A stretch of DNA of 64,000 nt from Cephalotus follicularis (taxonomy: Eukaryota; Streptophyta; Magnoliopsida; Oxalidales; Cephalotaceae). The translations under genes and the position numbers were made by a program. Below, in pieces: positions 3,553 to 58,889 of this stretch. The notes under the pieces were generated by a model. It saw nothing but the letters and a program-made list of their open reading frames with translations, did not search any database and had not been told where the DNA came from. The stretch lies in NCBI GenBank assembly GCA_001972305.1, contig BDDD01005827.1, positions 1 to 64,000 on the forward strand, read 5' to 3'. Position 1 is the stretch's first letter, and every line of letters starts with the position of its first letter.

Positions 3553-4897
3553 TGCTGTCACACCCCGTATTTCCATTCACGTATAATGGACAAGCATATG
3601 TGGTGATATCAGAGATAAGCATAAATAATATTTCAGCACAATTCATAAATAAATTTGCGGAAGTATTCGATAAGCCGAAATATAAATACAAGCCGTCCGC
3701 ATGCATCCCATACTACGTGCGGGTAAAACCAACAATTATACTTGTACATAAGAAAGTACAACAGTAACACGGAGTGTGATCCGTTCGATGCAATACAATA
3801 CAGTACATCATCAACATTAAAATAACAACCTTAAATAACAATAGAAGCTCTCTAAGCTTCAGTGGCAATCTCCCGAGTCTTCGCTTAATCTTTAATTGTA
3901 GGGGTTAGCCGTTGTCCTCACTTGGCTAAGTAGGAAGATAATGCATGATAAGGAATATATGAATGCAACAGGTATGACAGTTTATATCAAATGACATTTA
4001 AATGAGCCAATATATGAGCAATCATGCCAAGTGGCCATAAACAATCCATATGCAAGAATACCGCACAAGGGTACAATCAATTCATCCCTCACTTGGGTGT
4101 CACATGTCGCTAACTCCTAGCACCAACAGTGCACCACCTATCTATCACCCTACGCTCCGAGGATGATAGATAAGGTAACACTTACTACTGGTGTTGGCGG
4201 GTACTTTAACAATCAATCTCTGCATAGCAGAACACTTGGCGATACTCTGGCCAACTCCTGGCACCCAGAATCACATTCCGTAGTCAGTGACATCCTCCGT
4301 CACTCAACCACGGCAATAATAGACAATCAATACAAGCATTTCAATAATAATATTACATATATCGGCAATATGCAATAGAAAAGTAGTTTTGTTTAGAAAC
4401 TATGACAAGTCACTTATCGTACATCTCTTCGGAGGAAAACGATATCAATTCAATAATGGTTTCCAGTTTGGGAAACAAAACAGTAGGTACCTCTCATATA
4501 GGAGGAAAATCAGTAGTTCATTTTGCAATAATTATTCACTTGAAAATGATAGTTGATCTCATGATTTGGGTACATAGCCCATAATTGGTTTCAATTGTTG
4601 AAATTCAAGTACTAGTGGTGTTAAATGACACCAAAACAGTTTATACTAATATGACAGTAGCATATTCAGTATCAATATCACAATCAGTAGCTCTTGTAAA
4701 TAATAGTTTCCATTTGAAAATGGTGTTTAACCATGAATTGTGCATATAGCACATAGTTCGTTCGATCGTTGAAATATAAGTGGTAGCGATGTTAAGTAAC
4801 ATCAAACAGTGTATACTATATGGTGGTAACATATACAATTCAGTAACGGTACCAAACAGTAGCAATTCAATCAATGTTATGCAATTTCTACCCAGAA

Positions 4898-5016
4898 CAG
4901 TCGACTGCCCTCAAGAATAGTCGACTGTTTTGGTTGTGTAGTCGATTGTTTTGGCTTGGCAGTCGACTGGATATTTTGAGTAGTCGACTGCCATGAGCTC
5001 CAGTCGACTGCCTCTG
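4898..5016. repeat. GTCGAC palindrome array 2 of LTR D1 (AGTCGACTG spelling)
   Basis: Six copies of AGTCGACTG, or one-mismatch forms, in 120 bp. They sit about 1260-1377 bp from the LTR start, the same place where D2 carries GCGTCGAC-type motifs. Confidence 0.9.
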
Positions 5017-6019
5017 CCCAGAAAATGCAGGCAGTAGCAAGTCATGCAGTTCAAGTTCAATTTCCAATCAATTCAACACATGTAATCATGCAGAAAATAG
5101 ACATACACTATGCATACTATATCTTCCATAACATATCATTACCCCTACCTCAAATCGCTATCCCAAGATCAATTGAGTTTGATCTTTCTCTTTGAGTTCC
5201 AAGTCTCTTTTCACCAATCACTATTTCAATCCAGCAAGTTCAATCTATGTATGCATGTTTATGTATACATGCATTAGTACCAGTAGGTTTCAATAACTCT
5301 AACAATAGTTTAACACTAGCTCATTGAGTCTTATCATCACTCTTACCATTGTACCACTTTCTCTTTGAACTCTATGCCAATTATCATTAAATTTTGAGTT
5401 CATGGATCTTAACTTGTTTTGACAGAAGTTGCATTTACATTTAGGAACCCAGTAAGCATATTCATGACATTAACAACAACTAAAAATCCATTCTAGAGTT
5501 TATAGTCACCAATTCCACTCGATCCACTCACTACTTCCCATTTCAATTCAAAAGGTTGTTAATTCTAATCCATTAATAGAAGATATTAATATTCTTAGCC
5601 ATATTATCATCATATCAACAAAGAATTCGAATCAAGGACTTACCAAGAGTCCAAAGCTTCCAAGTCCTCCTTGGTGCTTTCTACAAGTCCTCCAATGCAA
5701 GCTCCAATAATTCCTCTCTTAACTCAATGTTTCTAACACTCATATCACAATTCAATCAGCTGATATAAGTCTCAAAGATTTATGAATTCGTCAGATTCCT
5801 TCTCCAAGTCACATACACTCACTTTTTCTTTCTTTTCTTTCCATCACATGCATCCCTTTCTTCACTTTTCTCTCATAATATTTCAATTTGTAGGTTGTAG
5901 GTCTGCAGAGAACATGCAAACATTCACTTTTGCATTTTCTGGCATATGGTGAAACGCATGTGCCTCCGACCCATCTGTCATTCTTGTCCCTGCACATGCC
6001 AGGAATCTGTCCTAGGCAA

Positions 6020-6110
6020 TTCCAGTCGACTGGCTATAGTGGGCAATCGACTGCCTCCAACACGTAGCAAACAGTCGACTGTTGCCCTGTGACAGTCGGC
6101 TGTTTGGGCT
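6020..6110. repeat. GTCGAC palindrome array 1 of LTR D1
   Basis: Four motifs (CAGTCGACTGG, CAATCGACTG, CAGTCGACTGTTG, CAGTCGGCTG) about 165-255 bp from the LTR start, upstream of the TATA-like box. Confidence 0.85.
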
Positions 6111-6275
6111 AGTTTAGGGCTTCTTAACTTTGATACTTCTCCAATTGCACACCCATCCATCCCAAGCATTTACCAAACATAGAAATCAAAATAATTGGAT
6201 AAATAACTCAATTAAAATGTATATTTTACGTCAAAATTGGATCAATATACATTAATTGAATTTGCGGTTATTACA

Positions 6276-7633: not shown

Positions 7634-7805
7634 TGTAACCCCCGTGGTTTTCCTGCACTATAATTTCACAATGTAAATGTATTTTATTTGTGGAATTAAT
7701 AAAATGATGGATTTTTTGAATTTGATGATGTTTTCCCAAACCATGATGATGTTGATTTTGATCAATTATATACTTAGAAGTGTGATTACTTGGCAATTAT
7801 ACTGG

Positions 7806-7965
7806 ATGTAGTCGACTGGTATGGAGCACCAGCCAACTGGATGGCTGTATATGGGGACAGTCGACTGGTAGGATGAACCCGTCGACTGGCCAACTGTCGT
7901 GACACTTGGAAACATACTACCAGGCGAACAGCCGACTACCAGGGAAAGGCAGCCGACTGGATCAT
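7806..7965. repeat. GTCGAC palindrome array 1, LTR B 5' copy
   Basis: AGTCGACTGG, AGCCAACTGG, AGTCGACTGG, CGTCGACTGG, AGCCGACTACC and AGCCGACTGG at 20-40 bp steps, about 172-330 bp from the LTR start and upstream of the TATA-like box. Confidence 0.9.
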
Positions 7966-8441
7966 GCTCTGTTTGTTGCATGTGATAGAAATCACATGTT
8001 ACAACTGACATTGGAAGTAGATGCCACCTGTGCTTCATGCAGCCGAAGGAAGGGATGTAAGGGACACCTGTGGATCATGCAATACTTGATGGGGCAGAGA
8101 AATTGGCTCTGTGAGTGTGTGCATGTATGTGAATGGGAGAGTGTGGCATTTAGTGCCATGTGAGGAGTGAAGGAAGAAGAGGAGGAAAGGCTCTGCATAA
8201 AAACGTTCCACTCATTCCCTTTCGTCTTGGTACTGATAGAACAAAGAACCAAGAGGACAGTAGTGAGAAAAACACAAAGAAAAGAGAGTGTTCACCATTG
8301 TTGAAGCTTGGAGTTCGGGTTGGATCTGTTGGGTTGTTCTTGGAGCTGCTGGGCTTGGAGTTGGAGCTTCTGGAGAGCTCAGAACATCACTGATAGGAAC
8401 ACAAAGAGGTGGGCTTACAGATTCCTAACTTGGAATCAAAG

Positions 8442-8443
8442 GT
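8442..8443 (+). promoter_or_regulatory. Candidate 5' splice site in LTR B
   Basis: AATCAAAG|GTAGGGG, 808 bp into the LTR and downstream of the TATA-like box. The same AGGTAGGGG word is found in LTRs A, D, H and J (E has AGGTAGGTT). Use as a splice donor is an inference. Confidence 0.45.
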
Positions 8444-8771
8444 AGGGGAAGTTGTAATGGCATTTTAAGTTTAAACTTACTGCATGTTCCATGATTTGAA
8501 ATGCCTGGTTTGTGAGTTGTAGCTACTGAATTTTGAATGTGGTTACTACTGTTTCCAACTGCTATGCCTGCCTACTGACAATCAATGTGATTATTGTGCA
8601 TGCATGTTGAACCTTATAGGCCTTTGGCTTGCATGATGAAATGAATGTTGGATAAACTATTATATGGATGATATGACAACCTGTAGTTGTATTTCCTGTC
8701 CCTGAGCTTAAGTTATCTGCTTACCATGATCCGTTAGAGTAGTTAGATCGATTTACATGCCACTGGTTCGC

Positions 8772-9030
8772 GGAGCAGCCGACTGTCGAAGGAAGTCAGT
8801 CGACTACTCAATGAGACCAGTCGACTGCCAATGGAAAGCAGTCGACTGTTCAAACTTCATACTGCCCAGGAAATGGTAATCTGGGAATGTTCTCATAACA
8901 GTCGACTGTTGAAGAACAACAGTCGACTCCCTAAATGACAGTCGACTGGTAGAAGGAACCAGTCGACTACTGATACTGCTCGACCCAGAACAGTCGACTG
9001 GTAAGGATTCCAGTCGACTGGTTGGACTGC
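8772..9030. repeat. GTCGAC stem-loop array 2, LTR B 5' copy
   Basis: Ten or so motifs, several paired as extended hairpins. AGTCGACTGC/GCAGTCGACT has arms 8819-8828 and 8838-8847. AGTCGACTGTTG/CAACAGTCGACT has arms 8900-8911 and 8917-8928 with loop AAGAA. AGTCGACTGGT/ACCAGTCGACT has arms 8940-8950 and 8958-8968 with loop AGAAGGA. AGTCGACTGG/CCAGTCGACT has arms 8992-9001 and 9010-9019. The bases outside the core differ between pairs but match within a pair. Confidence 0.92.
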
Positions 9031-10310
9031 TGATTGCCTAAAACGATACGAAACGATCCCGGTTCCTTCTAGGATGCATTTGAGCATTTGTATGCATTGC
9101 ATATATACTGTTTACTGCCTGTTTGTACTGCTTGTACTCAAATTATGATTTCTAATGTGTTGTTACTTTAGAAATGCATATGTGAATCGAGACTGCTATT
9201 TTGATTACAAACGAGTATTGATATCGTATTTTCAAACATCTTTGGAAAGCGATTTCCACTACTGAAACTGTTTAAACGTGTTTTCTACTGAAAATGCAAT
9301 ATTTCAAATGTTATCACTTTTGAAACATTTTGGAAATAACCTGCCTGTTGTGGATCTAAACGATCACTACTGTCCTGTTTACTGTACTGTTACTGCTTGA
9401 ATTCACTATTTGCTCTGTGAATTGTTATATATTTGTGCTTGAGCCACTAGCTGCATGGCGGAGGCTGCCAGCGCCGGTTAGTGGTGTGCTTGACCCAGGG
9501 GCCAGGAGTATGGCTGGGTCACTCACTGTACTGTTGTCTCGCTCGGTTGCCTGAAGTAGGGACCGGAGTGGGAGTGTAACGTAGGGCCAGGAGTTGGCGG
9601 CGTTACACATACTGCCTGTTGTTGTGGTCCTATGTGGACATCCTGTACTGCATGTTGGTATTTCTCGAACATTACTGTGGTTGTTGATGTAGCCCTGGCC
9701 GGGTTACTACTGTACTGTTTCTGCATACATATAATTTCTTATATATGTACCCACTAATATTTTACCGTACTGTTAAATATATATATTTTCGTATATATAT
9801 AAACTGGAATTTCTACTGTACTGCATCATCCATGCATCCATATCATGACATGCATTATGTTGATCCCGAGTTACTTTTATGACTTAGCCGAGTGAGGAAA
9901 AAGGCTAACCCCCTACTTTACAGATTGATGTTGTGGACCTGTTGGATTGACATGGACGAAGAGCAAGCGTTATGTTGTTCTTAGTTTTACTATTCTCCTG
10001 TTTTGTAATAACTAAGTTGTTAACAGATTTCAGATGTACCATTTTTACGGATTTGTTTTATGATTGATTTAAACTTGTAATGTGATCACGCTCCATTTTG
10101 CGGGCGATTAACAATGATGGACTTGTTGAGTAGCGTGTAGTATGGGATTCACGTTACGGATTTCACAGCTTATGGATTTTTAAATGCTTCCGCGACTGAC
10201 ATCTAGTTTAAAGTTTAAATTTTATGGTTGTTACATGAGCTGTATTTATCTGTTAATTGCCTTTACTGCTTTAATGTTCGTCTCTCTCTTTAAAACGGGG
10301 TGTGACAGAG

Positions 10311-10322
10311 TGGTATAAGAGC
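10311..10322 (+). other. Primer binding site of element B
   Basis: TGGTATAAGAGC, one mismatch from the tRNA-iMet complement TGGTATCAGAGC, 3 bp after the 5' LTR. Confidence 0.85.
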
Positions 10323-14977: not shown

Positions 14978-15014
14978 AATTTCGAGGACGAAATTCTTTT
15001 GAAGGAGGGGTGGA
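14978..15014 (+). other. Inverted repeat and polypurine tract of element B
   Basis: AATTTCG-AGGA-CGAAATT (arms 14978-14984 and 14989-14995), then GAAGGAGGGGTGGA directly before the 3' LTR. The same arrangement precedes the 3' LTRs of A and I. Confidence 0.85.
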
Positions 15015-15190
15015 TGTAACGCCCGTAGTTTTCCTGTACTGTAATTTCACAATGTAAATGCATTTTATTTGTGGAATTAATAAAATGATGGATTTTTCCG
15101 AATTTGATGATGTTTTCCCAAACCATGATGATGTTGATTTTGATCAATTATATACATAGAAGTGTGATTACTTGGCAATTATACTGGAGG

Positions 15191-15345
15191 CAGTCGACTG
15201 GTATGGAGGACCAGCCGACTGGATAGCTGTATATGAGGACAGTCGACTGGTAGGATGAACCAGTCAACTGGCCAACTGTCGTGACACTTGGCAACAGATT
15301 GCCAGGCGAACAGCCGACTGCCAGGGAAAGGCAGCCGACGGGATC
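15191..15345. repeat. GTCGAC palindrome array 1, LTR B 3' copy
   Basis: Equivalent of 7806-7965: AGTCGACTGG, AGCCGACTGG, AGTCGACTGG, AGTCAACTGG, AGCCGACTGCC and AGCCGACGGG. Confidence 0.9.
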
Positions 15346-16156
15346 ATGCTCTGTTTGTTGCATGTGACAAAAATCACATGTTACAACTGACGTTGGAAGT
15401 AGATGCCACCTGTGCTTCATGCAGCCAAAGGAAGGGATGTAAGGGACACCTGTGGATCATGCAATACTTGATGGGGCAGAGAAATTGGCTCTGTGAGTGT
15501 GTGCATGCATGTGAATGGGAGAGTGTGGCATTTAGTGCCATGTGAGGAGTGAAGGAAGAAGAGGAGGAAAGGCTCTGCATAAAAACGTTCCACTCATTCC
15601 CTTTCGTCCTGGTATTGATAGAACAAAGAACCAAGAGGACAGTAGTGAGAAAAACACAAAGAAAAGAGAGTGTTCACCATTGTTGAAGCTTGGAGCTCGG
15701 GTTGGAGCTGTTGGGTTGTTCTTGGAACTGCTGGGCTTGGAGTTGGAGCTTCTGGAGAGCTCAGAACATCACTGATTGGTACGCAAAGAGGTGGACTTAC
15801 AGATTCCTAACTTGGAATCAAAGGTAGGGGAAGTTGTAATGGCATTTTAAGTTTAAACTTACTGCATGTTCCATGATTCGAAATGCCTGGTTTGTGAGTT
15901 GTAGCTACTGAATTTTGAATGTGGTTACTACTGTTTCCAACTGCTATGCCTGCCTACTGACAATCAATGTGATTATTGTGCATGCATGTTGAACCTTATA
16001 GGCCTTTGGCTTGCATGATGAAATGAATGTTGGATAAACTGTTATATGGATGATATGACAACCTGTAGTTGTATTTCCTGTCCCTGAGCTTAAGTTATAT
16101 GCTTACCATGATCCGTTGGAGTAGTTAGATCGATTTGCATGCCACTGGTTCGCGGA

Positions 16157-16425
16157 GCAGCTGACTGTCGAAGGAAGTCAGTCGACTACTCAATGAGACC
16201 AGTCGACTGCCAATGGAAAGCAGTCGACTGTTCGTACTTCATACTGCCCAGAAAATGGTAATATGGGAATGTTCTCGTATGGGTGCACTGTAACAGTCGA
16301 CTGTTGAAGAACAACAGCCGACTGCCTAATGGACAGTCGACTGGTAGAAGGAACCAGTCGACTACTGATACAGCCCGACCCAGAACAGTCGACTGGTAAG
16401 GATTCCAGCCGACTGGTTGGACTGC
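16157..16425. repeat. GTCGAC stem-loop array 2, LTR B 3' copy
   Basis: Equivalent of 8772-9030, including the GTTGAAGAACAAC and GGTAGAAGGAACC hairpin loops. Some cores have changed to GCCGAC. Confidence 0.9.
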
Positions 16426-17702
16426 TGATTTCCTAAAACGATGCGAAACGATCCCGGTTCCTGCTAGGATGCATTTGAGCATTTGTATGCATTGCATATG
16501 TACTGTTTACTGCCTGTTTGTACTGCTTGTACTCAAATTATGATTTCTAATGTGTTATTACTTTAGAAATGCATATGTGAATCGAGACTGCTATTTTGAT
16601 TACAAACGAATATTGATATCGTATTTTCAAACATCTTTGGAAAGCGATTTCCACTACTGAAACTATTTAAACGTGTTTTCTACTGAAAATGCAATATTTC
16701 AAATGTTGTCGCTTTTGAAACATTTTGGAAATAACCTGCCTGTTTTGGATCTAAACGATCACTACTGTTCTGTTTACTATACTGTTACTGCTTGAAATCA
16801 CTATTTGCTCTGTGAATTGTTATGTGTTTGTGCTTGAGCCACTAGCTGCATGGCAGAGGCTGCCAGCGCCAGTTAGTGGTAGGGTTAACCCAGGGGCCAG
16901 GAGTATGGCTGGGTAACTCACTGTACTGTTGCCTCGCTCGGTTGCCTGAAGTAGGGACCGGAGTGGGAGTGTAACATGGGGCCAGGAGTTGGCGGCGTTA
17001 CACATACTGCCTGTTGTTGTGGTCCTATGTGGACATCCTGTACTGCCTGTTGGTCCTTCTCGGACATTACTGTGCTTGTTGATGTAGCCCTGGCCGGGTT
17101 ACTACTGTACTGTTTCTGCATACATATATTTTCTTATATATGTACCCACTGATATTTTACCGTACTGTTAAATATATATATTTTTGTATATATATAAACT
17201 GGAATTTCTACTGTACTGCATCATCCATGCATCCATATCATGACATGCATTATGTTGATCCCGAGTTACTTTTATGACTTAGCCGAGTGAGGACAAAGGC
17301 TAACCCCCTGCTTTACAGATTGATGTTGTGGACCTGTTGGATTGACATGGACGAAGAGCAAGCGTTATGTTGTTCTTAGTTTTACTATTCTCCTGTTTTG
17401 TAATAACTAAGTTGTTAACGGATTTCAGATGTACCGTTTTTACGGATTTGTTTTATGATGGATTTAAACTTGTACTGTGATCACGCTCCGTTTTGCGGGC
17501 GATTAACAATGATGGACTTGTTGAGTAGCGTGTAGTATGGGATGCACGTTACGGATTTCACAGCTTATGGATTTTTAAATGCTTCCGCAACTGACATCTA
17601 GTTTAAAGTTTAAATTTTATGGTTGTTACTTGAGTTGTATTTATGTGTTAATATCCTTTACTGCTTTAATGTCCGTCTCTCTCTTTAAAACGGGGTGTGA
17701 CA

Positions 17703-18503
17703 GTTTGAGTAGGGGTCAAAAGTTAAAAACTAAGAACAGCATTGGCGCTTTTGTTAAAATGTCAAAGATTTCGGACTTAGCAGTGAATCGCCATACAGTT
17801 GTTTAACAGCCCAAAATCCGTTTAAATCCATTTAAAACTCGATCCAAGGGAAGCTCTAAGCCCCAATGGTCGATGGTAACTTGAAAACATATTTAAACCT
17901 TTAGATCTATACCCTTAAGCCCATCACCGAGAGGGAGAAAAGAAATTGGATGAATATCTCAAATTCACTAATCTGTCTTTGATCTCTATTTCAATATGTT
18001 AATAACTCTATCAATCACCCTAACTCATCCATCTAGCATGTATATATTCATCCATAGCTGAATAAGCATACAAATCCATCACAATGCATGAATTCAAAGC
18101 ATATATGTAGAACCTACCTCAAAACTATTAAGTTGAAGATCTAAAAAGATTTATTACTGAAACATTGATCTGATCCTTCCTTCAAGTTCCAAACTCAGCC
18201 ACGAATCCAAAGACTCCTTCCTTGCTTGATTCTAAGCTCTATCTCTCAACTCTCTCTCTCTCACTTCATCTCTCTAGAAAATGGAATGAGAAATGAAAGA
18301 GTTGAACTATCTATATATAGACTTCCTTGGGTGTAAAACCCAAAAACTTTCCCTACGTTCACTTGAACAGCCACTACCCATAAACAATCATAAAAGTGAA
18401 AAATATCATAATATACATACAATCCATGCCATTCGTATATTCAATACTGTACAATACTATGTAATTACAAACAATTCCGTACATCTATAACTCAGGGATT
18501 ACA
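17703..18503 (-). mobile_element. LTR E1, right part (LTR start)
   Basis: Begins with the GTTTG target duplication of B and continues the host LTR. On the minus strand it starts TGTAATCCCTGAG at 18503. A TATATATAG box lies about 190 bp in (18308-18318) and a donor-like GAGGTAGG at 18112-18120, followed by AT-rich leader. No gene. The LTR is seen as 6829-7633 plus this part; its 3' end is lost at the B' junction. Confidence 0.7.
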
Positions 18504-20827: not shown

Positions 20828-20836
20828 ACATATATA

Positions 20837-20867
<31 letters not shown>

Positions 20868-24149: not shown

Positions 24150-24656
24150 ATTCTTTTTCGCATATCTCCTCGCGGTTGAGCAGCCGCGCCACTTCCACCA
24201 GTTCCCTCACTACTCGGTTGGGCTTTCACAATGGGACACTCTTTCACGCGATGATCAGATGAACCACATCTCAAGCACTTCCCTGCCTTCTTCCAACACT
24301 TAGTTTCCTCATGATTTGGAAGACCAGAAAAATTACATCCTCCAAAATTCGGGTGACCGCTTCGGATGGGAGTCCTTAAACGAGAAGTATCTTGAGTAGC
24401 AGTCTATTGAGGGTGCTTCAAAGCTCACCTAGACCGTCTAGAAAGATGTCTAACCTGTTGTGCTTGAACGTACAATCGCTGCATTTCCTCCATGTGAGCT
24501 GCACTAGCAGTCATCTGTTGTCGGATAAAATCGGTTATCCGTTCCATCTTCGCCGCATTGGCTTGAATCTGCTGTTGGAAGAGGTCAGCCATGCGGTCAA
24601 AGTTACTCCTCTCTTCTTGCACTGAGGAATATTCACTGCTTCCCTTGCTGGCGGAT
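24150..24656 (-). pseudogene. gag: Gag remnant of D2, interrupted by element A
   Basis: Right to left: SASKGSSEYSSVQEERSNF, MADLFQQQIQANAAKMERI (helical N-terminal region, like the DYFQQQMA region of A), then a short linker directly into the nucleocapsid. The capsid domain is deleted. The first knuckle is degenerate (CNFSGLPNHEETKC, second Cys replaced by Ser); the second, CLRCGSSDHRVKEC, is intact. The first 21 codons of this gag lie beyond element A at 41250-41313. Confidence 0.85.
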
Positions 24657-24767
24657 AAAGTGATGGTTTTTCCTAATTTGATGATTTTTTTCCGAACTAT
24701 GATGATGTTGATGTTAAACGATTATGTACTTAGAAGTGTGATTACTTGGTATGTACACTGGAGGTAG

Positions 24768-24920
24768 TCGACTAGCACGGAGGACCAGCCGACTGGATGG
24801 CTGCTTATGGGAGCAGTCGACTGGTGGGATGAACCAGGCGACTGGCCAACTGTCGAGCCACCTGGCAACGAACTGCCAGGCGAGCAGCCGACTGCTAGGT
24901 GTGGACAGCCGACTGGATCG
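24768..24920. repeat. GTCGAC palindrome array 1, LTR A 5' copy
   Basis: AGTCGACTAGC, AGCCGACTGG, AGTCGACTGG, AGGCGACTGG, AGCCGACTGC and AGCCGACTGG at about 30-bp steps. Confidence 0.9.
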
Positions 24921-26129
24921 TGCTCTGTTTTGTTGCATGTGGTAGAAATCACATGCTACAACTGACAGATGGAAGTGGATGCCATCTGTGCTTCATGCAG
25001 CTAAAGGAAAGGATAAAGGGGACACCTGTGGATCATGCAAACTTCATGGGGCAGAGAAATTAGACCTGTGAGTTTGTGCATGCATGTGAATGAGGGAGTG
25101 TGGCATTTAGTGCCATGTGAGGGAGCTAGGGGAGAATGAAAGAGAAAAGGCTCTACATAAAATTCCTCTCCTCACTTCTCTCGTCCAGGTGCTGAGAGGC
25201 CAAAGAACCAAAGGAAACAGTAGCGAAAAACACAAAGAAAAGAGGGAAGAAGAGTGTTTTTCCATTGTTGAAGCTTAGAGCTCGGGTTGGAGCTACTGGG
25301 CTGTTCTTGGAGCTGCTGGGCTTGGAGTTGGAGATTCTGGGGAGCTCAAAACGTATCTGTTGGAACACAAAAAGGTGGGCTTACAGATTCCTAACTTGGA
25401 ATCAAAAGGTAGGGGAAATAGTAGAGAATGCTATGCATGCATTTTGAGTTTAAGAGTAATGATGTTATAAATGGATGGTGTAGTTGTCTGGCTGTGAATT
25501 TCTGTATTGATGTTGTTGTTATTGTTAATGAATAACCTGACATGCACACCGAATTTTGGATTGGTTTTCATGCAATACCATGTTTGGGTTTCATTTGAAT
25601 TATAATGAAAACGGAGAATAATTGTCACACCCCGCTTGCATTAACAACATACAACATGGCAATTTAACAGATATCCAGCTTATACAGAGAACGATAAAAT
25701 TTAAAACTTTTAAACAGACATCATCTTGCGGAAGCATTTATATATAAGCTGAAACAAACGGAACCATGCGTCCCATACCGCATGATTCCCACAACATCCA
25801 CGGTAAAACATAGATAAAAATCCCACAAGCGGAGCATGATCCAAAGTTGATACAACAACAATAGCAAAACATTAGTACATAAACCAAAGTACAACATGTT
25901 CGCTACACTGCTTAACAAAGCACTTAAAGCGTAAAACTCTGCCACATCACAGTCCGATACGGCCATGCCCGACGATATCCACAACGCAGCATCAATCTGC
26001 AACAGTAGGGGGTTAGCCTTTGTCCTCACTCGGCCAAAGTCATAAAAGCAACACAATATCAATAAAACCAAAGTATAAAAGCAGCATGATGCAGTACATA
26101 CTATATCTCGATGCATATATATAAATATA

Positions 26130-26470
26130 GATATTCATATGCCAAAACACGATGTCACGATATCACAGTAATCACGATGTCACAATGTCACAATGCACGG
26201 TCTCAAACAAGTCCAAAGGACTACACAATACACGGTTCACGATGGGTACGAAGAGCATCGCCAACTCCTGGCCCCAACGTCGTACATCCCGACATCGGCC
26301 CCGACTCCGGACGGCACGAAGCAGGTCACAATGCAGTGAGTCACCCAGCCAACTCCTGGCCCCTGAGTCAAACCGGCCACTAGTCATCGCTGGCATCTCC
26401 GCCACGCAACTTGTACGACCACAATCACAATCACAATCAGCAATCACAGTCAAGCTCAATCACAATCATC
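26130..26470. repeat. Low-complexity CACRATGTCACRAT repeats in H
   Basis: Words TCACGATGTCACAATG (26140-26200) and CACAATCACAATCA (26410-26465) repeat within the LTR. Simple-sequence drift; nothing coding. Confidence 0.6.
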
Positions 26471-26807
26471 TCGATGCTCAAAACTGTTTTCCAAGTAGTT
26501 TATAAAACAAAATACTTGAAAACAAACTCATTTTCACGATGTCACGGTTCACGGTTCTCGATATCATAAAACTCAGTTCACGGTATTTTTGGAAGTTATT
26601 TTCATGGTTCGAAAGTATATATTTTCTCAAAACATATATTTTCGTGTAAAGTAATGATTTTCATTAAACTACAATGCACTTCCCGAAAGGTGATACAACA
26701 GTTCAAACTCAATAATCACAATGCTCAAAACAGTTTATAAAGCTTCACGAAGCAAAACATCACAATACACGATGCATATATATGTTCACGGGCAAAACAG
26801 GCCCCCA

Positions 26808-27110
26808 ACAGTCGGCTGCCTCCCACCGGCACTCGGTTGTTCCCATCAAAGTAGTCGGCTGCCAATCCCAGGCAGTCGGCTACACAACCAGATAGTCGGC
26901 TGCCCGCACTCGACAGTCGGCTGGCCCTCAGGACAGTCGGCTGTCCACACTCCCGCAGTCGGCTGCTGACCTACAACAGTCGACTACACAACCTCTGCAG
27001 ACATTTTCTGGAAACGAACATGGGTAGTCGACTGGCCTCATAAGAACAGTCGGCTGGACCCATAGGCAGTCAACTGCCCAACGTGGGCAGTCGGGTGGAT
27101 TCTACAGTAG
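26808..27110. repeat. AGTCGGCTG array 2 of LTR H
   Basis: About a dozen motifs, mostly AGTCGGCTGCC or AGTCGGCTGG with AGTCGACT interspersed at 25-35 bp. The GTCGGC core variant dominates here. Confidence 0.88.
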
Positions 27111-27624
27111 GTGTAAAAACCAACAGCTAAAACAGCCACAATCACACACCCAACACAGCCCAAAATTACACATTTATGCACATACACGTTCCAAGCTCAC
27201 AATATAACACAAACATGCATTTTATTCCATCAAAAACATTATCAATTGAAATTATGTTGCAAAAATGACTTCCCCCTACCTTAGAACCCCAAGATAGGAG
27301 TTGCAATCCACCTCTTTATGTCTAAATCCGAGGCTCTTGCAACCCCAACACGTCCAGCAACCTTCCACAGGTCCGAAATCCCACAGTCAAGCCTCCAAGC
27401 TTTCGGTTTCCTCACAAACCCTTTGTTCCACACAAAACACACACACACTTCCACTCTCAACTCACAAACACTCTTGGAAAACACAGAGGATGATGGAGAA
27501 AGAGGAGAGAAAGGCTGTGTTTTATGGAGAAAGACCCGGCCCCTCCTCTGCCATCTGCCATAAAAACCAAAACATCCCACCTTTTGTCACTTAAGGCAGA
27601 CAGCACGTGGGTTGTCTGGTGCAT

Positions 27625-27765
27625 GGCAGTCGACTGCCTTGGCCTGGCAGTCGGCTATTTCTGCCGACACTCCCACCAGCCGGCTGCTTCCCCACAACAG
27701 CTGGCTGCCACGCCTCAGCAAAGGGTCCAGTCGGCTGCCTCCATGTGGCAGTCGGCTGCCCCTGC
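27625..27765. repeat. AGTCGGCTG array 1 of LTR H
   Basis: AGTCGACTGCC, AGTCGGCTA, AGCCGGCTGC, AGCTGGCTGCC, AGTCGGCTGCC and AGTCGGCTGCC, 140-280 bp from the LTR start. Confidence 0.88.
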
Positions 27766-28039
27766 ACAAAAACACACCACAACACACTTTCTTGAAACAC
27801 TTCACTACACAAAAGAGGGAAAAACACGATTCTCATTAACACAAGGTGTAAAATTACATTGGAAAAGTAATATTACACATAAATGAAAATCCTGGGCGTT
27901 ATAATAATGCATGAATTGAGTTGTGTTTTAGACCAGGATATGAATACCGATGATATTCTGTGATATGAATACGTGTGGAATGGTTTCAATTGCTTGTTGA
28001 ATGGATTTAGAAGTGAATTACCGGTACTGTCTAGCCCAG

Positions 28040-28262
28040 AACAGCCGACTGTTTAAGTGAAACAGTTGACTACTCGATCATCCAGCCGACTGTCATGTAA
28101 GAACAGTCGACTGTGCATGCATTTTTGCCCAAAACAGTCGACTGTAGAAGGAAGACAGTCGACTGCTGATTACTCGTGATGAAGAAGTCGACTATTGGGG
28201 AAGAACAGTCGACTGTCTTAAGGATCCAGTCGACTGTTATGGAAAAACAGCCGACTGTTATA
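28040..28262. repeat. GTCGAC stem-loop array 2, LTR A 5' copy
   Basis: Pairs such as GCCGACTGTTT-AAGTG-AAACAGTTGACT (28053-28080) and AGTCGACTGT-AGAAGGAAG-ACAGTCGACT (28135-28163) form extended hairpins with purine-rich loops. Confidence 0.9.
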
Positions 28263-29431
28263 ACAGAGATTGAACCTTTAGAGAAGGTGATAGGCCTAGG
28301 TTAAATACCAACAACCCTAGGTGCATTCTCAGCATATGTTTGCCCTGCATTTGAACTGCTACTGTACTGTAAATTGATATTTGGTTGATTACTGAATGTA
28401 TTAACCATCTTGGAAAACTTGCATGATTATTATAATCATTTTGGGATAAGAAAATGTATATTTGACAAATATAAACTTATATTTTCAAATCACTGGGGGA
28501 GTATTCCCAAAGATGGAGAAATGTATTGTTCCAAGTATTACAACTTATAACAACCTGATAATGGAGTATTATATTTTAAACAAATATATTTGGATCAAGT
28601 AATCATGTTTTGTTGCTTGACTTGTATTGTATTGTGCTTGTAAACTATTGATTACTTAGCCGCTGTGCTAGTAACATGCTGTTGGTTTAGCCGCCGTGCT
28701 AAGCAACATACGGAGGACTTGCTCCCAACTATTCGCAAACGGGGATGGGGTAAGAGTGCATGACGTTGGGTCCAGGAGGTGGCGACGGTTATGACGACCT
28801 GCTTGTCTGGTTCCTTTTGGGGACATACCTACTACCTGCGTTTGATATAACCTTATCAGGTTGTACCTGTACTGTAAACAGGCATACATTTTTATATGTA
28901 TATACAGAGATATAATTACTGAGGAAATTACATGTCATGCTGCATCACTATGCATTCATTCATGATACGCATTACCTTTGACCTTGAACTGTATACATGA
29001 ACTTTTCTACTTAGCCGAGTGAGGACAAAGGCTAACCCCCTACTGTAACAGATTGATGGAGTGGGTTTTGATATGGAGCACGCAAGGAGACTTAAGGAGA
29101 AGACTAAGCTATTGCTCTTATTTTTATGTACTGAATTACTGAACAATAATTATGTAACTGGATCATTGTAACTTGGGTTTATTCTATTTCGTACTGTGTC
29201 ATCACGCTCCGTTTATGGGCGATCGACAATGATGTTGGGTTTATATAAACTCTGTGGGTATCACATAGTATGGGATGCGTGATACATATTTGATTTCAGC
29301 TTATTTCATGTTATTGCTTCCGCTACTGAAGGTTTTTGTTTATACGTTTTATCGCATGAGCTAAATTATTTTGTGTTGATTGCCTTACCGTTTTTTTGTT
29401 GTCCTCTTGGAAAAACGGGGGTGTGACAAAG

Positions 29432-33298: not shown

Positions 33299-35250
33299 TG
33301 TTAGATATAGTGACCCGACAAGCCATTAGATGGGTTGTCATATTATATCTTACCATCTATAGAACAATCTTATTCTTATATATATGATGCGTGCTAAATT
33401 TGTTATGGCTATATCACTTGTATTTTATCACATAATTGAAGTAGTTTAATTATTACCTACTTATACTAGTGATGCCCTGACATAAGGTTGGATGCCTGGC
33501 ATGGAGGCTGTGAGACTAGTTACCTTATTCCTTATGTCAAACTTGTTCCAAGTCATAGGTTCACTTTGTGGGCATTAGTGAACCGGATAGACTTGCGCGT
33601 ATGTTCCTTAGACCTGAGCGACTACTCGATATTGTATGGAGACGGTTATGCTTTGATCTCCACCTTACCCAGTCCTTGCGCAGGGCTGGCAATCGGGTGG
33701 TCTTTGGGTATAATCGAATCTATACGAATATAATTGAGTGCGCAATAAGGGATTGTCACACCTGAGCAATGGTGATCGGCCCTATTATGGTCTGATTATA
33801 CTATGGACTTATGAAATCCTTGGCCAAGGTTGAGGTAGACTGGAAATTAGATTTCTGGAGAGTTTACCAAAGGTCCTAGTAATGATCAGATATTTTAGCC
33901 ATTGAGGTACTATCTAGGGTTAACACGTATCCTTACCCTAGACCTCAATCGCGGCCAAGTATGACAAGGGATTGTAGTACACGCGAACCGACGGCTTAGA
34001 AAATCTAGGGTTAATGAGGTGTGTAATAAATTATGAGAAAATTAATTAGATTAATTTTTTCTATATGGATAATATTAGATATTATTCCGAGAGCATTTAA
34101 ATGGTCTGGGATAATTTAGAATGGCTAAACCAGACCCGAGGGGTATTTCGGTAATTTATGAACACCTCTCGTTTTAACCAAGATTTTAAAGGGTCCCTGC
34201 CTTATAATGATTAGATCTTTAATATGTAAGACATATTAAGCCTAGGTGTCAAATATCGGTTGTGTGGATTTTGCATTTTGTGGAAACACATATGGTTAAT
34301 CTTACTTAACCAATATTTGAAAGTCATATGAGATCACTAAAAGAGTTAGACTTTTCATGCTTGACTGGCCAGAAGGCGTCGATGTCTTTTAGAAAGACGT
34401 CGATGCTTTTCTTTGATAAAGACGTTGATGTTTTTTAGAAAGCATCGATGTGCTTTAGTGCCACGTTGCATAGACGTTGACGTCCTTTGGAAGGCGTCGA
34501 CGTCTTTGAGCAGAACATGCAACCAGTGCACGATCTCACTTCGTGGGCACTACTTCTCTCACATCCTTAGCCGGTTTCTTATGATTCTACATGTTTTAGA
34601 AACGTGGGAATCATGGCTTCGGACTCCCAGGGAGTGAAGGCCATGATCCTAAGTGAATGGGAGATTGGGAGAGAGAATTGTAGGCTAGTTATAAGCATTT
34701 CTGCAGAAAATGGAATTAAGGGGTTGAGACATTTTTGCTAGGCAATTGACCTCGAATTCTTCTCTGCAAGTGTGTGCTCCTTCATCAGATAAACACCAAG
34801 CAAAGGCTTATCTAGGGTGGATTGATTATTGACTTCATTGGTCATAATCAATACTCCTTTTCTAAGTTAAGTGAGAGAGAGAGTGAGTTCAAGCACTTTG
34901 ATCTTGCTGGTTGGATTACTTGCTGTTCCTGAGGCTTGGAGGAGATCAAAGGGAATCTACTTCAAGCTTGTAGCGGCAAAGAACGAAGGAGCCAACACCC
35001 ACTGGTATAAACTCTTGGTCCTTCTTCCTAATACCATGCTTGTGTGTCACCATTGGACGCAATGGTGACACCAATTCAATTTAGTAGATGCTGTGGTGAT
35101 CCATGTGATCTGTGGAAGTGTCATTATGGATTGGTTTATGTATTATTGGGTGTTCTTCCACTGCATGATTGTATGTTTAAAGTTTTTATTCTACACCCTA
35201 CACACCTAAGTCCATCAATGACATTGGACTCGGTTTGTCCGTTTCCAACA
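33299..35250 (+). mobile_element. 5' LTR of G1
   Basis: 1952 bp, TGTTAG to CCAACA. The last 1350 bp (33901-35250) match 36553-37902 at exactly the same length. It contains a palindrome array at 34374-34505. Confidence 0.9.
34374..34505. repeat. GACGTCGAYGTC array in LTR G1
   Basis: GGCGTCGATGTC, GACGTCGATGC, GACGTTGATG, GCATCGATGTG, GACGTTGACGTCC and GGCGTCGACGTC, several paired as hairpins, for example ATGTCTTT-TAG-AAAGACGT. Repeated in the 3' LTR at 37026-37160. Confidence 0.88.
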
Positions 35251-35251
35251 A

Positions 35252-35263
35252 TGGTATCAGAGC
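35252..35263 (+). other. Primer binding site of G1
   Basis: TGGTATCAGAGC, exact complement of the tRNA-iMet 3' end, 1 bp after the LTR. Confidence 0.9.
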
Positions 35264-36547
35264 GTCCCACATCATCCTTAATTGAATATGTATGCCTTAG
35301 ATGATGTACTGATTAATAGTTTAATCAATGGATGTGTTTAGTGATCAAACTAAATTTTCTAAGTGCCTTAATGAAAATTAATTGAAATTGGATTTCATTG
35401 AGCTTTTATGCTGGGAATGTTGTTTTAATGTGTCTAGAATAATGTTTGGAACATGCATAGTGCATTATGGAGTGCCAGAATGGTATTCCAGAGTCTGAAC
35501 CATTAATTTCAGTATTTTTCGAAATGCAGAAAATGCCCAAGGGGCTATAGACGTCGACGATTTTGGTAAGACGTCGATGTCATGTTCAAATTCCCAGGCT
35601 AGACATCGACGTTCTTGATAGACGTTGATGTCTGGATCATCTTTTGTGAAACGCATCGATGTTCTTGGTAGACATCGACGCCTTTTTCAATTGTTCTTGT
35701 GAAACGCATTGATGCTCTATTTTTGCATCGACGCCTTGTTCATGTTTTTCCAAAAAACACGTCGATGCCTTTGGTAAGGCGTCGACGTCTTTTATAAAAA
35801 AATAAAAAAAAAAACTATTTTTTGATAAAATTGGATTTTATACATTTTGGCACTTGGAAGATTAAAAATCATTGCTTGATTTAGTAGGAGTTTGGTCAAT
35901 TAACAATCATAGAATTAAATTGTGTAATTGGTTATCATTTATGGCATTTGTTTTATTTGTGGTTTTATTATATTGGATATAATATAGATCTTATGCACAA
36001 TGGATGGCCCGAAAAGGACTTTGACCTAGATTATGGTTTTCTTTGTGTGAATGGATTTATTTATTTATTATCTTTAAAGGTCTGTAATAAGGTGTCTGCG
36101 TGCATCATTTATTTTTCCTTACTTTTGTAATTTCTCCTTGTAATTTTTAAATGTAAATATCTTTTCGAAAATGTATTGTTCCTTTTGTAAAAGAAGATCT
36201 TGCAAGGAGAGATGGAGGAAAGGAGATATGAAGTACAAGACTTTTGAAGGCCATGAATGCATGGTTATTGATGTAATAAATAGAATTAAATTTTTACACC
36301 TAGGAAGACCTAGTAGTGACTTTGGGCTCAAGTCATTACTTATAATGTCCTAGACAATCCATTGACATATTTTAGAAATATGTCCAAGGTGCATAAGATA
36401 TTCGTCTTGCATGATAAGCTGTAATTAATTGGAATTGGCTAATATAACCAATGAAATAATTAATGGCTTGGTAATTAAAACATGAGACCACAAATTCCCT
36501 CACTACAATAATAAGTCTCAACGTAGGAACCCATGGAGTGGTTCCCT
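35264..36547 (+). mobile_element. Internal region of G1, no recognised gene
   Basis: About 1.3 kb, AT-rich, with only ORFs of about 60 codons (for example 36171-36353, MYCSFCKRRSCKERW, which resembles no domain I know). It has a second palindrome array of the G1 type at 35549-35790. No polypurine tract is obvious before the truncated 3' LTR; the tract was probably lost with the LTR start. Confidence 0.7.
35549..35790. repeat. GACGTCGACG array in the G1 internal region
   Basis: AGACGTCGACGA, AGACGTCGATGTC, AGACATCGACGTTC, AGACGTTGATGTC, ACGCATCGATG, AGACATCGACGCC, ACACGTCGATGCC and AGGCGTCGACGTC at 20-40 bp. This is the one array that lies outside an LTR. Confidence 0.85.
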
Positions 36548-37902
36548 TACCCATTGAGGTACTATCTAGGGTTGACACATATCCTTACCCTAGACCTCAA
36601 TCGGGGCCAAGTATGACAAGGGATTATAGTACACGCGAACCGACGACTTAGAAAATCTAGGGTTAATGAGGTGTGTAATAAATTATGGGAAAATTAATTA
36701 GATTAATTTTTTCTATATGGATAATATTAGATATTATTCCGAGAGCATTTAAATGTTCTGGGATCATTTAGAATGGCTAAACCGTACCCGAGGGGTATTT
36801 CGGTAATTTATGAACACCTCTCGTTTTAACCAAGATTTTAAAGGGTCCCTGCCTTATAATGATTAGATCTTTAATATGTCAGACATATTAAGCCTAGGTG
36901 TCAAATATCGGTTGTGTGGATTTTGCATTTTGTGGAAACACATATGCTTAATCTTACTTAACCAATATTTGAAAGTCATATGAGATCACTAAAAGAGCTA
37001 GACTTTTCATGCTTGACTGGCCAGAAGGCGTCGATGTCTTTTAGAAAGACGTCGATGCTTTTCTTTGATAAAGACGTCGATGTTTTTTAGAAAGCATCGA
37101 TGTGCTTTAGTGCCACGTTGCATAGACGTTGACGTCCTTTGGAAGGCGTCGACGTCTTTGAGCAGAACGTGCAACCAGTGCACGATCTCACTTCGTGGGC
37201 ACTACTTCTCTCACATCCTTAGCCGGTTTCTTATGATTCTACACGTTTTAGAAATGTGGGAATCATGGCTTCGGACTCCCAGGGAGTGAAGGCCATGATC
37301 CTAAGTGAATGGGAGATTGGGAGAGAGAATTGTAGGCTAGTTATAAGCATTTCTGCAGAAAATGGAATTAAGGGGTTGAGACATTTTTGCTGGGCAATTA
37401 ACCTCGAATTCTTCTCTGCAAGTGTGTGTTCCTTCATCAGATAAACACCAAGCAAAGGCTTATCTAGGTTGGATTGATTATTGACTTCATTGGTCATAAT
37501 CAATACTCCTTTTCTAAGCTAAGTGAGAGAGAGAGTGAGTTCAAGCACTTTGATCTTGCTGGTTGGATTACTTGCTGTTCCTGAGGCTTGGAGGAGATCA
37601 AAGGGAATGTACTTCAAGCTTGTAGCGGCAAAGAATGAAGGAGCCAACACCCACTGGTATAAACTCTTGGTCCTTCGTTCGAATACCATGCTTGTGTGTC
37701 ACTATTGGATGCAATGGTGACACCAATTCAATTTAGTAGATGCTGTGGTGATCCATGTGATCTGTGGACGTGTCATTATGGATTGGTTTATGTATTATTG
37801 GGTGTTCTTCCGCTGCATGATTGTATGTTTAAAGTTTTTGTTCTACACCCTACACACCTAAGTCCATCAATGACACTGGACTCGGTTTGTCCGTTTCCAA
37901 CA
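36548..37902 (+). mobile_element. Truncated 3' LTR of G1
   Basis: Matches 33896-35250; the first ~600 bp of the LTR are absent. The terminal TTTCCAACA and TSD are intact, so the loss is internal. Confidence 0.88.
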
Positions 37903-38661: not shown

Positions 38662-38698
38662 AATTTCGAGGACGAAATTCTTTTGAAGGAGGGGTGGA
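38662..38698 (+). other. Inverted repeat and polypurine tract of A
   Basis: AATTTCG-AGGA-CGAAATT (arms 38662-38668, 38673-38679), then GAAGGAGGGGTGGA before the 3' LTR. Confidence 0.88.
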
Positions 38699-38872
38699 TG
38701 TAACGCCCGGAAATTTCATGTATTGTAATTTCACAATGTAATGTACTTTATTGTGGAATCAATAAAATGATGGATTTTTCCTAATTTGATGATGTTTTTC
38801 CGAACTACGATGATGTTGATGTTAAACGATTATGTACTTACAAGTGTGATTACTTGGTATGTACACTGGAGG

Positions 38873-39025
38873 CAGTCGACTGGCACGGAGGACCAGCCGA
38901 CTGGATGGCTGCGTATGGGAGCAGTCGACTGGTGGGATGAACCAGGCGACTGGCCAACTGTCGAGCCACCTGCCAACGAACTGCCAGGCGAGCAGCCGGC
39001 TACTTGGTATGGACAGCCGACTGGA
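38873..39025. repeat. GTCGAC palindrome array 1, LTR A 3' copy
   Basis: AGTCGACTGG, AGCCGACTGG, AGTCGACTGG, AGGCGACTGG, AGCCGGCTAC and AGCCGACTGG; 174-326 bp from the LTR start. Confidence 0.9.
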
Positions 39026-39862
39026 TCGTGCTCTGTTTTGTTGCATGTGGCAGAAATCACATGCTACAACTGACAGATGGAAGTGGATGCCATCTGTGCT
39101 TCATGCAGCTAAAGGAAAGGATAAAGGGGACGCCTGTGGATCATGCAAACTTCATGGGGCAGAGAAATTAGACCGGCGAGTGTGTGCATGCATGTGAATG
39201 AGGGAGTGTGGCATTTAGTGCCATGTGAGGGAGCTCGGGGAGAAGGAAAGAGAAAAGGCTCTGCATAAAATGCCACTCCTAACTTCTCTCGTCCAGGTGC
39301 TGAGAGGCCAAAGAACCAAAGGAAACAGTAGCGAAAAACACAAAGAAAAGAGGGAAGAAGAGTGTTTTTCCATTGTTGAAGCTCGGAGCTCGGGTTGGAG
39401 TTGCTGGGCTGTTCTTGGAGCTGCTGGGCTTGGAGTTGGAGATTCTGGGGAGCTCAAAACGTATCTGTTGGAACACAAAAAGGTGGGCTTACAGATTCCT
39501 AACTTGGAATCAAAAGGTAGGGGAAATAGTAGAGAATGCTATGCATGCATTTTGAGTTTAAGAGTAATGATGTTATAAATGGATGGTGTAGTTGTCTGGC
39601 TGTGAATTTCTGTATTGATGTTGTGGTTACTGTTAATGAATAACCTGACATGCACACTGAATTTTGGATTGGTTTTCATGCAATACCATGTTTGGGTTTC
39701 ATTTGAATTATAATGAAAACGGAGAATAATGCATGAATTGAGTTGTGTTTTAGACCAGGAATGAATACTGATGATATTCTGTGATATGAATACGTGTGGA
39801 ATGGTTTCAATTGCTTGTTGAATGGATTTAGAAGTGAATTACTGGTACTGTCTAGCCCAGAA

Positions 39863-40085
39863 CAGCCGTCTGTTTAAGTGAAACAGTCGACTACTCGATC
39901 ATCCAGCCGACTGTCATGTAAGAACAGTCGACTGTGCATGCGTTTTTGCCCAGAACAGTCGACTGTCGAAGGAAGACAGTCGACTGCTGATTACTCGTGA
40001 TGAACAAGTCGACTGTTGGGGAAGAACAGTCGACTGTCTCAAGGATCCAGCCGACTGTTATGGAAAAACAGCCGACTGTTATAAC
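39863..40085. repeat. GTCGAC stem-loop array 2, LTR A 3' copy
   Basis: Equivalent of 28040-28262, with GTTTAAGTGAAAC and GTCGAAGGAAGAC loops. The second is changed from GTAGAAGGAAGAC in the 5' LTR. Confidence 0.9.
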
Positions 40086-41249
40086 AGAGATTGAACCTTT
40101 AGAGAAGGTGATAGGCCTAGGTTAAATACCAACAACCCTAGGTGCATTCTGAGCATATGTTTGCCCTGCATTTGAACTGCTACTGTACTGTAAATTGATA
40201 TTTAGTTGATTACTGAATGTATTAACCATCTTGGAAAACTTGCATGATTATTATAATCATTTTGGGATAAGAAAATGTATATTTGACAAATATAAACTTA
40301 TATTTTCAAATGACTGGGGGAGTATTCCCAAAGACGGAGAAATGTATTGTTCCAAGTATTACAACTTATAACAACCTGATAATGGAGTATTATATTTTAA
40401 ACAAATATATTTGGATAAAGTAATCATATTTTGTTGCTTGACTTGTATTGTATTGTGCTTGTAAACTGTTGATTACTTAGCCGCTGTGCTAGTAACCTGT
40501 TGTTGGTTTAGCCGCCGTGCTAAGCAACATACGGAGGACTTGCTCCCAACCGTTCGCAAACGGGGATGGGGTAAGAGTGCATGACGTTGGGGCCAGGAGG
40601 AGGCGACGGTTATGACGACCTGCTTGTCTGGTTCCTTTTGGGGACATACCTACTACCTGTGTTTGATATAACCTTATCAGGTTGTACCTGTACTGTAAAC
40701 ATGCATACATTTTTATATGTATATACGGAGATATAATTACTGAGGATATTATATGTCATGCTGCATCACTATGCATTCATTCATGATACGCATTACCTTT
40801 AACCTTGAACTGTATACATGAACTTTTCTACTTAGCCGAGTGAGGACAAAGGCTAACCCCCTACTGTAACAGATTGATGGAGTGGGTTTTGATATGGAGC
40901 ACGCAAGGAGACTTAAGGAGAAGACTAAGCTATTGCTCTTATTTTTATGTACTGGATTACTGAACAATAATTATGTAACTGGATCATTGTAACTTGGGTT
41001 TATTCTATTTCGTACTGTATCATCACGCTCCGTCTATGGGCGATCGACAATGATGTTGGGTTTATATAAACTCTGTGGGTATCACGTAGTATGGGATGCG
41101 TGATACATATTTTATTTTAGCTTATTTCATGTTATTGCTTCCGCTACTGAAGGTTTTTGTTTATACGTTTTATCGCATGAGCTGAATTATTTTGTATTGA
41201 TTGCCTTACCGTTTTTTTGTTGTCCTCTTGGAAAAACGGGGGTGTGACA

Positions 41250-57537: not shown

Positions 57538-57737
57538 GGTCGTACCGGAACCCTGTGATGTTCCAGGAATCTATCATCGTACTGGATTATGAGATAGGCT
57601 TTCAGGTTCCACCTGATTATTGGATTTGTTGATGTATGTTGGACATATGTCATGTGGTGTGAGGATGGCATCTTGGAGATGTTACTTTGCAAGAGTATTT
57701 TAATTTGTTTGACAATTGTCACCTCATTGAGGTAGGG
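57538..57737. other. 200 bp of unassigned sequence
   Basis: The first ~20 bp may continue LTR G2 after the I insertion. I see no coding or repeat match in the rest. Confidence 0.4.
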
Positions 57738-57934
57738 TGTAACGCTCGGGATTTTCATATGTTGTAATTTCACGATGTAAATGTACTTTTACTGTGAAAT
57801 TAATAAAATGACTGATTCCTGACTTTGGGGACGTTTTCCTTTTACATAATGTTTTTTTGAGTTATGTAATGTTAAGGGACGTTGAAGTATATCACTAGAA
57901 ATGTCGGGTTGAGTTTCGGAAGAAATATGCCCAA

Positions 57935-58065
57935 ACAGCTGACTGTTTTATAGGGACAGCTGACTGGATGGTTATACTGGGATAGCCGACTGGTTGTGGA
58001 AACAGTCCACTGGATGGCCTCGAGTTGCCAGCCGACTATCGAGTAAGAACAGCTGACTGGACGAC
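57935..58065. repeat. Palindrome array 1 of LTR J
   Basis: CAGCTGACTG, CAGCTGACTGG, TAGCCGACTGG, CAGTCCACTGG, CAGCCGACTATC and CAGCTGACTGG: decayed cores at preserved spacing. Confidence 0.8.
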
Positions 58066-58889
58066 ACTCTGTCAGCAGACATGTGAAGTGATCACATGCA
58101 GCAACGGATTGGGAAGAAATGGAACGACACCTGGGAGTCATGCGGCTCATTCAGGAAGCAGAGACAAGCCTACATGCTTTTCAGACTGAATATGTGGCAG
58201 TTCTTGACAAATGGTGCATAGAAGTTGCCAAAGTGGGAAGAAAATGGCGCATGGGCATGCATTTCGGGTTGATGAAGGAGGGAGAGTTTTTCAGCTATTT
58301 AAAGCTCCTCTTTTCTCCTAATCTGTCAAGCCACTAAGCCAGAAAGGACCTGTGATCTTCGAAGGAAAGAAAACACTACTGTGAAGGGAAAACAAGAGAG
58401 ATTTTGAGAAAAAAAGAAGGGAGAACTTTAGCCCTTTGTTGAATCAAAGGAGCTGGGACTTGGAGCTTGAACCTGGGCTTGCAAACCTGACTTGGGAAGC
58501 TTGGAGGAGCTGTGGTTCATACTAAAAGAGGTGGACTTATAGATTCCTAACATGGAATCAAAAGGTAGGGGAAGTTATATTTATATTTGAGCTCAAAGTT
58601 ACTGGATGTCCTGTGATCGAATGCTGGTTCTATGAATTGTGATTTTCAACTTTTATGACATGGTTACTGCTGCTTTCGTCTACCATGCTCACTGTTAAGG
58701 ATTAAATGAGATTATGTACGTGCATGTTGAGTTTAATCATGGTGTTGATTTGCTTGATGAAATGCATGTTAAATGTGGTGTTATATGGACGATATGATAA
58801 CTAGTACTGATGTTCTATCCTATGAATATGAACGTATAGCCTGCAATGATCTGTTTGAGTAGATAGATCAAATTGCATATTGCTGGTTC

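Follow-up and report, generated by a model that had tools for sequence, protein, structure and literature searches.

The 5′ LTR of the Ty3/gypsy element B of Cephalotus follicularis holds, in the second of its two arrays, paired GTCGAC palindromes with flanks that can be read as the arms of stem-loops. Are these pairs hairpins kept by selection on a folded strand, or are the palindromes boxes that are read in another form? We analyzed the whole stretch of 64,000 nt (hereafter, the window). With a probability of roughly 0.6, we consider that these arrays serve a large group of plant Ty3/gypsy elements as cis-regulatory sites in the LTR, bound as double-stranded DNA.

Box-bearing LTRs were found in seven copies belonging to five plant Ty3/gypsy insertions (A′, B, C, D, and the solo LTR E), and all seven copies have two arrays separated by 0.5–1 kb. 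The ORF pieces of B and C matched gag, protease, RT, RNase H, and integrase in the Ty3/gypsy order; RT and RNase H lie ahead of integrase and gag is of the Ty3 type, so that the host is not a Ty1/copia Sirevirus. Element C gave an additional match to Tf2-1 SH3, and its Chromo match was marginally under the cut-off (24.8 vs 25.1 bits). For one pol piece, the top two protein relatives among the best 120 of 8000 were from Cephalotus (72% and 69%). With regard to other element-encoded proteins, the seven ORFs scanned gave gag-pol and chromodomain matches only. The features of these LTRs are as follows.

7634..10307, + strand: LTR B5, with TG..CA ends set by eye (alignment 7625–10308)
7809..7959, + strand: array 1 of LTR B5, 6 boxes, 5′ of the TATA-like sequence
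8196..8202, + strand: TATA-like CATAAAA between the B5 arrays, candidate promoter
8440..8448, + strand: donor-like AG/GTAGGGG in B5, 336 bp 5′ of array 2, putative splice site
8776..9020, + strand: array 2 of LTR B5 (the studied feature), 10 boxes with spacings of 21, 21, 21, 60, 21, 19, 21, 31, and 20
9910..9923, + strand: acceptor-like block ending in TTTACAG, putative splice site
15005..17703, + strand: LTR B3, 95.6% identical to B5, arrays at 15191–15341 and 16158–16415
24655..29428, + strand: LTR C5, split by solo LTR E, arrays at 24765–24915 and 28042–28257
25623..27902, − strand: solo LTR E, nested in C5, arrays at 27627–27758 and 26809–27097
38695..41249, + strand: LTR C3, arrays at 38873–39023 and 39863–40078
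57735..59934, + strand: LTR D, an older copy with approximate ends, arrays at 57936–58059 and 58896–59164
3556..6150, − strand: LTR A′, approximate ends, arrays at 6023–6102 and 4898–5010

The C5 alignments that flank solo LTR E (25623–27902) overlap by about 6 bases in C3, resembling a target-site duplication. Elsewhere in the window, 1.27-kb direct repeats at 52236–53508 and 55590–56859 are 98.4% identical and are probably the LTRs of a young element, and 12 copies of a unit of about 163 bp stand in tandem at 62018–64000 and reach the window end.

Of the 16 boxes of B5, 6 precede the TATA-like sequence and 10 follow it. A TATA-like sequence is located 3′ of array 1 in B, C, E, A′, and the related LTR F; none was found 3′ of array 1 in LTR D. 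Donor-like AG/GTAGGG(G) lies 140–350 bp 5′ of array 2 in B, C, D, E, A′, and F, and the acceptor-like block is conserved close to the LTR end in B, C, E, and a partial LTR at 6276–6835. Judging from these donor- and acceptor-like sequences, it is plausible that array 2 is inside a leader intron. One array would thus be upstream of the candidate promoter and the other downstream of it, probably within this intron. A very conserved block at 8420–8448, GATTCCTAACTTGGAATCAAAGGTAGGGG, is common to B and C, is little changed in D, and contains a 6-bp inverted repeat beside the donor-like site.

The hairpin units quoted in a preliminary description of this DNA are all present: GTTG-AAGAA-CAAC at 8899–8929, GGT-AGAAGGA-ACC at 8939–8969, GG-TAAGGATT-CC at 8991–9020, and GC-CAATGGAAA-GC at 8818–8848, as well as two units of what was called ‘LTR A’ at 28042–28072 and 28135–28165. 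Its claim of matched arms in array 2 holds for the four listed pairs, which are an unrepresentative four of the seven neighboring pairs at a spacing of 19–21; in those that begin at 8776, 8797, and 8920, no arm extends outside the 10-base box. Because any two copies of a palindrome form a stem automatically, only the arms are informative.

We then turn to the box itself. The window contains 49 exact copies of AGTCGACT, where 0.70 would be expected, and the box pair (T-T form, spacers of 3–20) was found at 127,333 places in the 1.577-Gb genome, compared with 387 for the reversed-pattern control. In the LTR sense, the box reads CAGYCGACTR (106 boxes), with GTCGAC inside 49 boxes and GCCGAC inside 35. 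Position 4 is T in 57, C in 47, and G in 2 of the 106 boxes, whereas position 7, its counterpart in the palindrome, is A in 104, T in 1, and G in 1. The box is not a plain palindrome, since position 4 varies and position 7 does not; the flanks and outer bases are symmetric. When arrays were left unoriented, the variants fell on one side in 158 cases and on the other in 4 (55 arrays with 402 boxes, from the window and 200 kb of contig 1), although a symmetric palindrome would give 48 minority cases in the 55 arrays. In 50 arrays outside the window, which take in four stretches picked for containing mixed pairs, the counts were 147 vs 13. The sequence AGGTAGGG is located at most 450 bp upstream, in sense, in 13 of 45 oriented arrays and is mirrored in none, which independently supports the array orientation. 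For comparison with Sirevirus repeated motifs, whose boxes form CpG islands, the pooled arrays have a GC content of 52.9% and a CpG observed/expected ratio of 0.67 (overall, 39.5% and 0.70), and the spacers have a CpG ratio of 0.29. The 63-residue translation across the array gave no protein match, a plasmid BLAST gave no match, and a literature search with the ten-base box gave no plant-LTR title among the matches listed. A pattern scan of IMG/VR for the box pair returned one stretch, L001, in which two boxes flank GGGGAAATTCCCC and together with it form a perfect inverted repeat (positions 111–140); it is probably unrelated.

One explanation of the pairs is that they are selected hairpins of RNA or single-stranded DNA in the LTR transcript, serving packaging, dimerisation, or as a small-RNA source, with compensation keeping the arms. 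The stem itself argues against this. On the sense strand, C4 opposite A7 breaks the stem, and of the 48 neighboring pairs, 22 are mismatched at stem position 4 and 21 at position 7. In 264 kb, consisting of the window and contig-1 stretches chosen for holding T-T pairs, there were 86 T-T pairs, 93 uncompensated pairs with C4 in one or both boxes, and no compensated pair; C4, the commonest box variant, breaks the stem without compensation in the neighboring pairs of these 264 kb. Genome-wide, the compensated pair form occurs at 678 places (spacers of 9–13). At the start of array 2, one stem carries a C-A mismatch in 6/6 aligned copies from four insertions. The arms give a mixed picture. For the 48 window spacers (one LTR copy per insertion, arms counted outside the 10-base box), the mean arm was 1.00 bp vs 0.53 after re-pairing flanks (p=0.0004), and this excess, in which relatives are counted, gave p=0.0018 when permuted within the LTR and 0.008 within LTR and array. 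For the seven spacers of the studied array, contiguous arms gave p=0.057 against re-paired flanks, paired columns gave p=0.019, and letter shuffling gave 0.010. Outside the window, including the four picked stretches, p was 0.0017 for 242 spacers and 0.0008 for the 160 distinct ones, and at least one of the picked stretches, L033, carries sequence closely related to B and D. When alike window spacers were collapsed to 27, p rose to 0.04–0.14 with Watson-Crick pairs and 0.12–0.37 with G-U included; outside the window, it was 0.05–0.07 after collapsing at 80% and 0.06–0.09 at 70%. Thirty non-redundant arrays from the window and contig 1 gave 0.57 vs 0.50 (p=0.10). In contig 1 by itself, after collapsing at 70%, there was no arm excess (0.35 vs 0.35, n=48, p=0.52), nor was there any in the outer flanks of the pairs, used as a control. 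Thus, an excess over re-paired flanks is present in the window, but it weakens on collapsing, is absent from the collapsed contig-1 sample, and returns once related families are included. We conclude that a small amount of arm matching persists, which depends on related families and is neither missing nor general.

Folding and covariation were evaluated for the same explanation. When spacers were letter-shuffled as a reference, 23 of 26 array-strand tests placed the real arrays below the shuffled mean in folding energy, nine of the 26 with z < −1.5. Against swapped spacer halves, which preserve the flank preferences, z was below −1.5 in only 3/26 tests and at 1.47–1.55 in another 3/26, and two of the three low tests were from the second half of the studied array, where the reader of the preliminary description had looked; swapping halves did not consistently weaken folding. 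One point in favor of this description remains: at the array 2 start in six aligned copies (four insertions), the covariation score was 0.179, which beats the slid versions and was reached by 4/500 shuffles; it rests on two double changes, each a C-G/T-A exchange in the LTR pair of one insertion. Rfam gave no match at E 0.1 over 7600–10400. In maize Sireviruses, LTR palindrome clusters coincide with small RNAs and have been tied to secondary structure (excerpts of PMC10760457), which favors hairpins by likeness. Taken together, hairpin selection as the main cause was unsupported by flank re-pairing, altered-spacer folding, and the pair counts, with a small residue left, and we regard it as unlikely.

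Conservation of the boxes was then compared with that of the spacers. Between B5 and C3, identity was 135/159 (85%) in boxes, 128/224 (57%) in spacers, and 716/1000 in outside DNA, and between B5 and D it was 122/159, 136/236, and 620/1043, respectively; part of this box conservation may be inflated, as the alignment may lock onto the repeated boxes. In the first part of array 2, with at most one gap, boxes and spacers were identical at 38/40 and 16/32 positions to C3 and at 36/40 and 22/33 to D. When the paired LTRs of the same insertion were compared (B and C pooled), boxes (302/320) and spacers (418/443) were both 94% identical. This contrast between families, and its absence within an insertion, suggests that the boxes were kept during element activity and not afterwards.

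Spacing and flanking bases also follow simple rules. Neighboring boxes are 19–22 bases apart in 266 of the 347 distances, with a dominant spacing of 21, and boxes mostly 20–21 bases apart would face one side of the helix. For the spacings other than 19–22, the helical phase gave a Rayleigh p of about 0.04, which is too weak with 15 hand-listed, partly redundant values. Of the 204 distinct boxes, 5 are directly preceded by T and 5 directly followed by A; one position further out, 2 have C on the left and 5 have G on the right. As these exclusions mirror each other across the box, the right flank of one box matches the left flank of the next more frequently than would be the case with shuffled letters. 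Apparent arm matches were also boosted by shared ancestry and the choice of examples. A covarying extension of the palindrome around the single box was not detected (0.56 vs 0.53, p=0.38), and the symmetry around it is a preference of each side.

The simplest account of the box conservation, the 19–22 spacing, and the symmetric flanks is, we infer, a dyad-symmetric DNA-binding protein on phased sites. The site would span 14 bases and be largely mirror-symmetric (not-C, not-T, CAG Y CGAC TG, not-A, not-G). Most likely, a putative dimeric host DNA-binding protein would occupy several boxes together, and this occupancy may switch LTR transcription or the chromatin state. The hairpins would mainly be a by-product, since palindromes pair anyway, and the symmetric flank rules and shared ancestry would match some arms. 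Of the two alternatives in the preliminary description, which took the changing arms as a sign of selection, paired binding sites are supported by the box conservation between families, the lack of this contrast within an insertion, and the flank exclusions; folding is not supported, in view of the uncompensated C4 and the inconsistent effect of swapping spacer halves. Against the binding-site reading, the uniform orientation may simply reflect tandem duplication, alignment may account for part of the box conservation, the arm matching is not fully explained, and most arrays folded below the letter-shuffled mean.

Tandem duplication without function, with the units alike through recent ancestry alone, agrees with the single orientation, the dominant 21-base spacing, and some plainly related units. 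It does not predict spacers far more diverged than boxes between families, a contrast gone after insertion, nor the mirror-image flank exclusion, and it appears improbable. We give as little weight to the idea that the boxes act not as DNA sites but as a linear, oriented RNA sequence bound, for example, by Gag or a splicing factor. The shared orientation of the two arrays in an LTR agrees with this idea, and array 2, being 3′ of the donor-like sequence, would be retained in unspliced RNA; however, array 1 is upstream of the candidate promoter, and mirror-symmetric flank rules with a two-turn spacing are unexpected for RNA.

The preliminary description knew of no named element type with this layout, which was mistaken: palindromic repeated LTR motifs have been described for Sireviruses. 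According to excerpts of PMC2829016, Sirevirus LTRs harbor clustered palindromic repeated motifs, one kind per element in at least eight copies, upstream of the TATA box, and 12/13 elements have a CGG-CCG core (Table 3). The present arrays are similar in having one kind of short box per element, clustered in the LTR and in B5 partly upstream of the TATA-like sequence, and the Vitis Sirevirus motif CGGTCGACCG has the same GTCGAC center (PMC2829016). They differ from those motifs, as excerpted there, in their Ty3/gypsy hosts, in the box CAGYCGACTR without a CGG-CCG core, in one asymmetric box position, and in a second array 3′ of the candidate promoter. The maize Sirevirus clusters, as covered by the excerpts of PMC10760457, likewise consist of grouped palindromes in a cis-region of the LTR for which structure is predicted, but superfamily and motif differ and the present stem is not maintained by compensation. 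The VANC targets of VANDAL transposons are dense same-orientation arrays of short motifs in non-coding parts, with C and T types and with family-specific motifs that arise by tandem repeats (excerpts of PMC5735166). The present arrays are also dense, non-coding, and of one orientation, with C and T forms of the box, whereas VANDALs, on the same excerpts, are DNA transposons encoding their own binding protein. A gene for a VANC-like binding protein was not seen among the seven ORFs scanned. By analogy, the present arrays may work like Sirevirus repeated motifs and VANC targets.

The CRT/DRE element has an RCCGAC core, is bound by DREB/CBF proteins, and is stress-responsive. The GCCGAC found in about a third of the present boxes (35/106) may point to a likeness at the sequence level. 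To our knowledge, DRE sites are not known as 14-base mirror-symmetric boxes.

Different boxes occur in two neighboring elements of the window.

41417..44075, − strand: LTR of element F, two arrays of a different box, about YGYCGAYGCTTA
33895..37902, + strand: small element G, paired RCGTCGAYG boxes 20–25 bases apart in LTR and interior

LTR pair F (mate at 20412–23123, minus strand) is 92.7% identical, and its arrays of GYCGAYGCTT boxes, partly read by eye from the sequence as YGYCGAYGCTTA, sit at relative places like those of B. Element G has 1.36-kb LTRs (97.5% identical), a 1.3-kb interior without a long ORF, and a PBS-like start. Just upstream of LTR B, at 7527–7623, there are five TCGA words 19–29 bases apart in GCRTCGA contexts, some of which resemble the F box on the minus strand. 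A′ and F share 77% identity over 3399–4541, yet A′ carries CAGYCGACTG boxes. On the basis of this LTR-end identity with different boxes, it is conceivable, if rather doubtful, that each LTR lineage owns an oriented box (CAGYCGACTG in A′ to E, YGYCGAYGCTTA in F, and RCGTCGAYG in G) that is replaced array-wise, and that a fast-evolving factor reads the arrays in a VANC-like way, relieving or imposing silencing. F and A′ to E would each have one array in U3 and one in the leader intron, and the two-turn spacing and the GYCGA core would persist through box turnover. If true, retrotransposons would have their own equivalent of the VANC system, acting at over 100,000 box pairs.

If proteins do bind these arrays as double-stranded DNA, a single plant genome with over 100,000 box pairs would offer its binding protein a large platform or sink, and the boxes would give a handle on the switching-on or silencing of Ty3/gypsy elements. 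Tandem palindromes can mimic compensating hairpins, and the asymmetry of the box variants tells the two apart.
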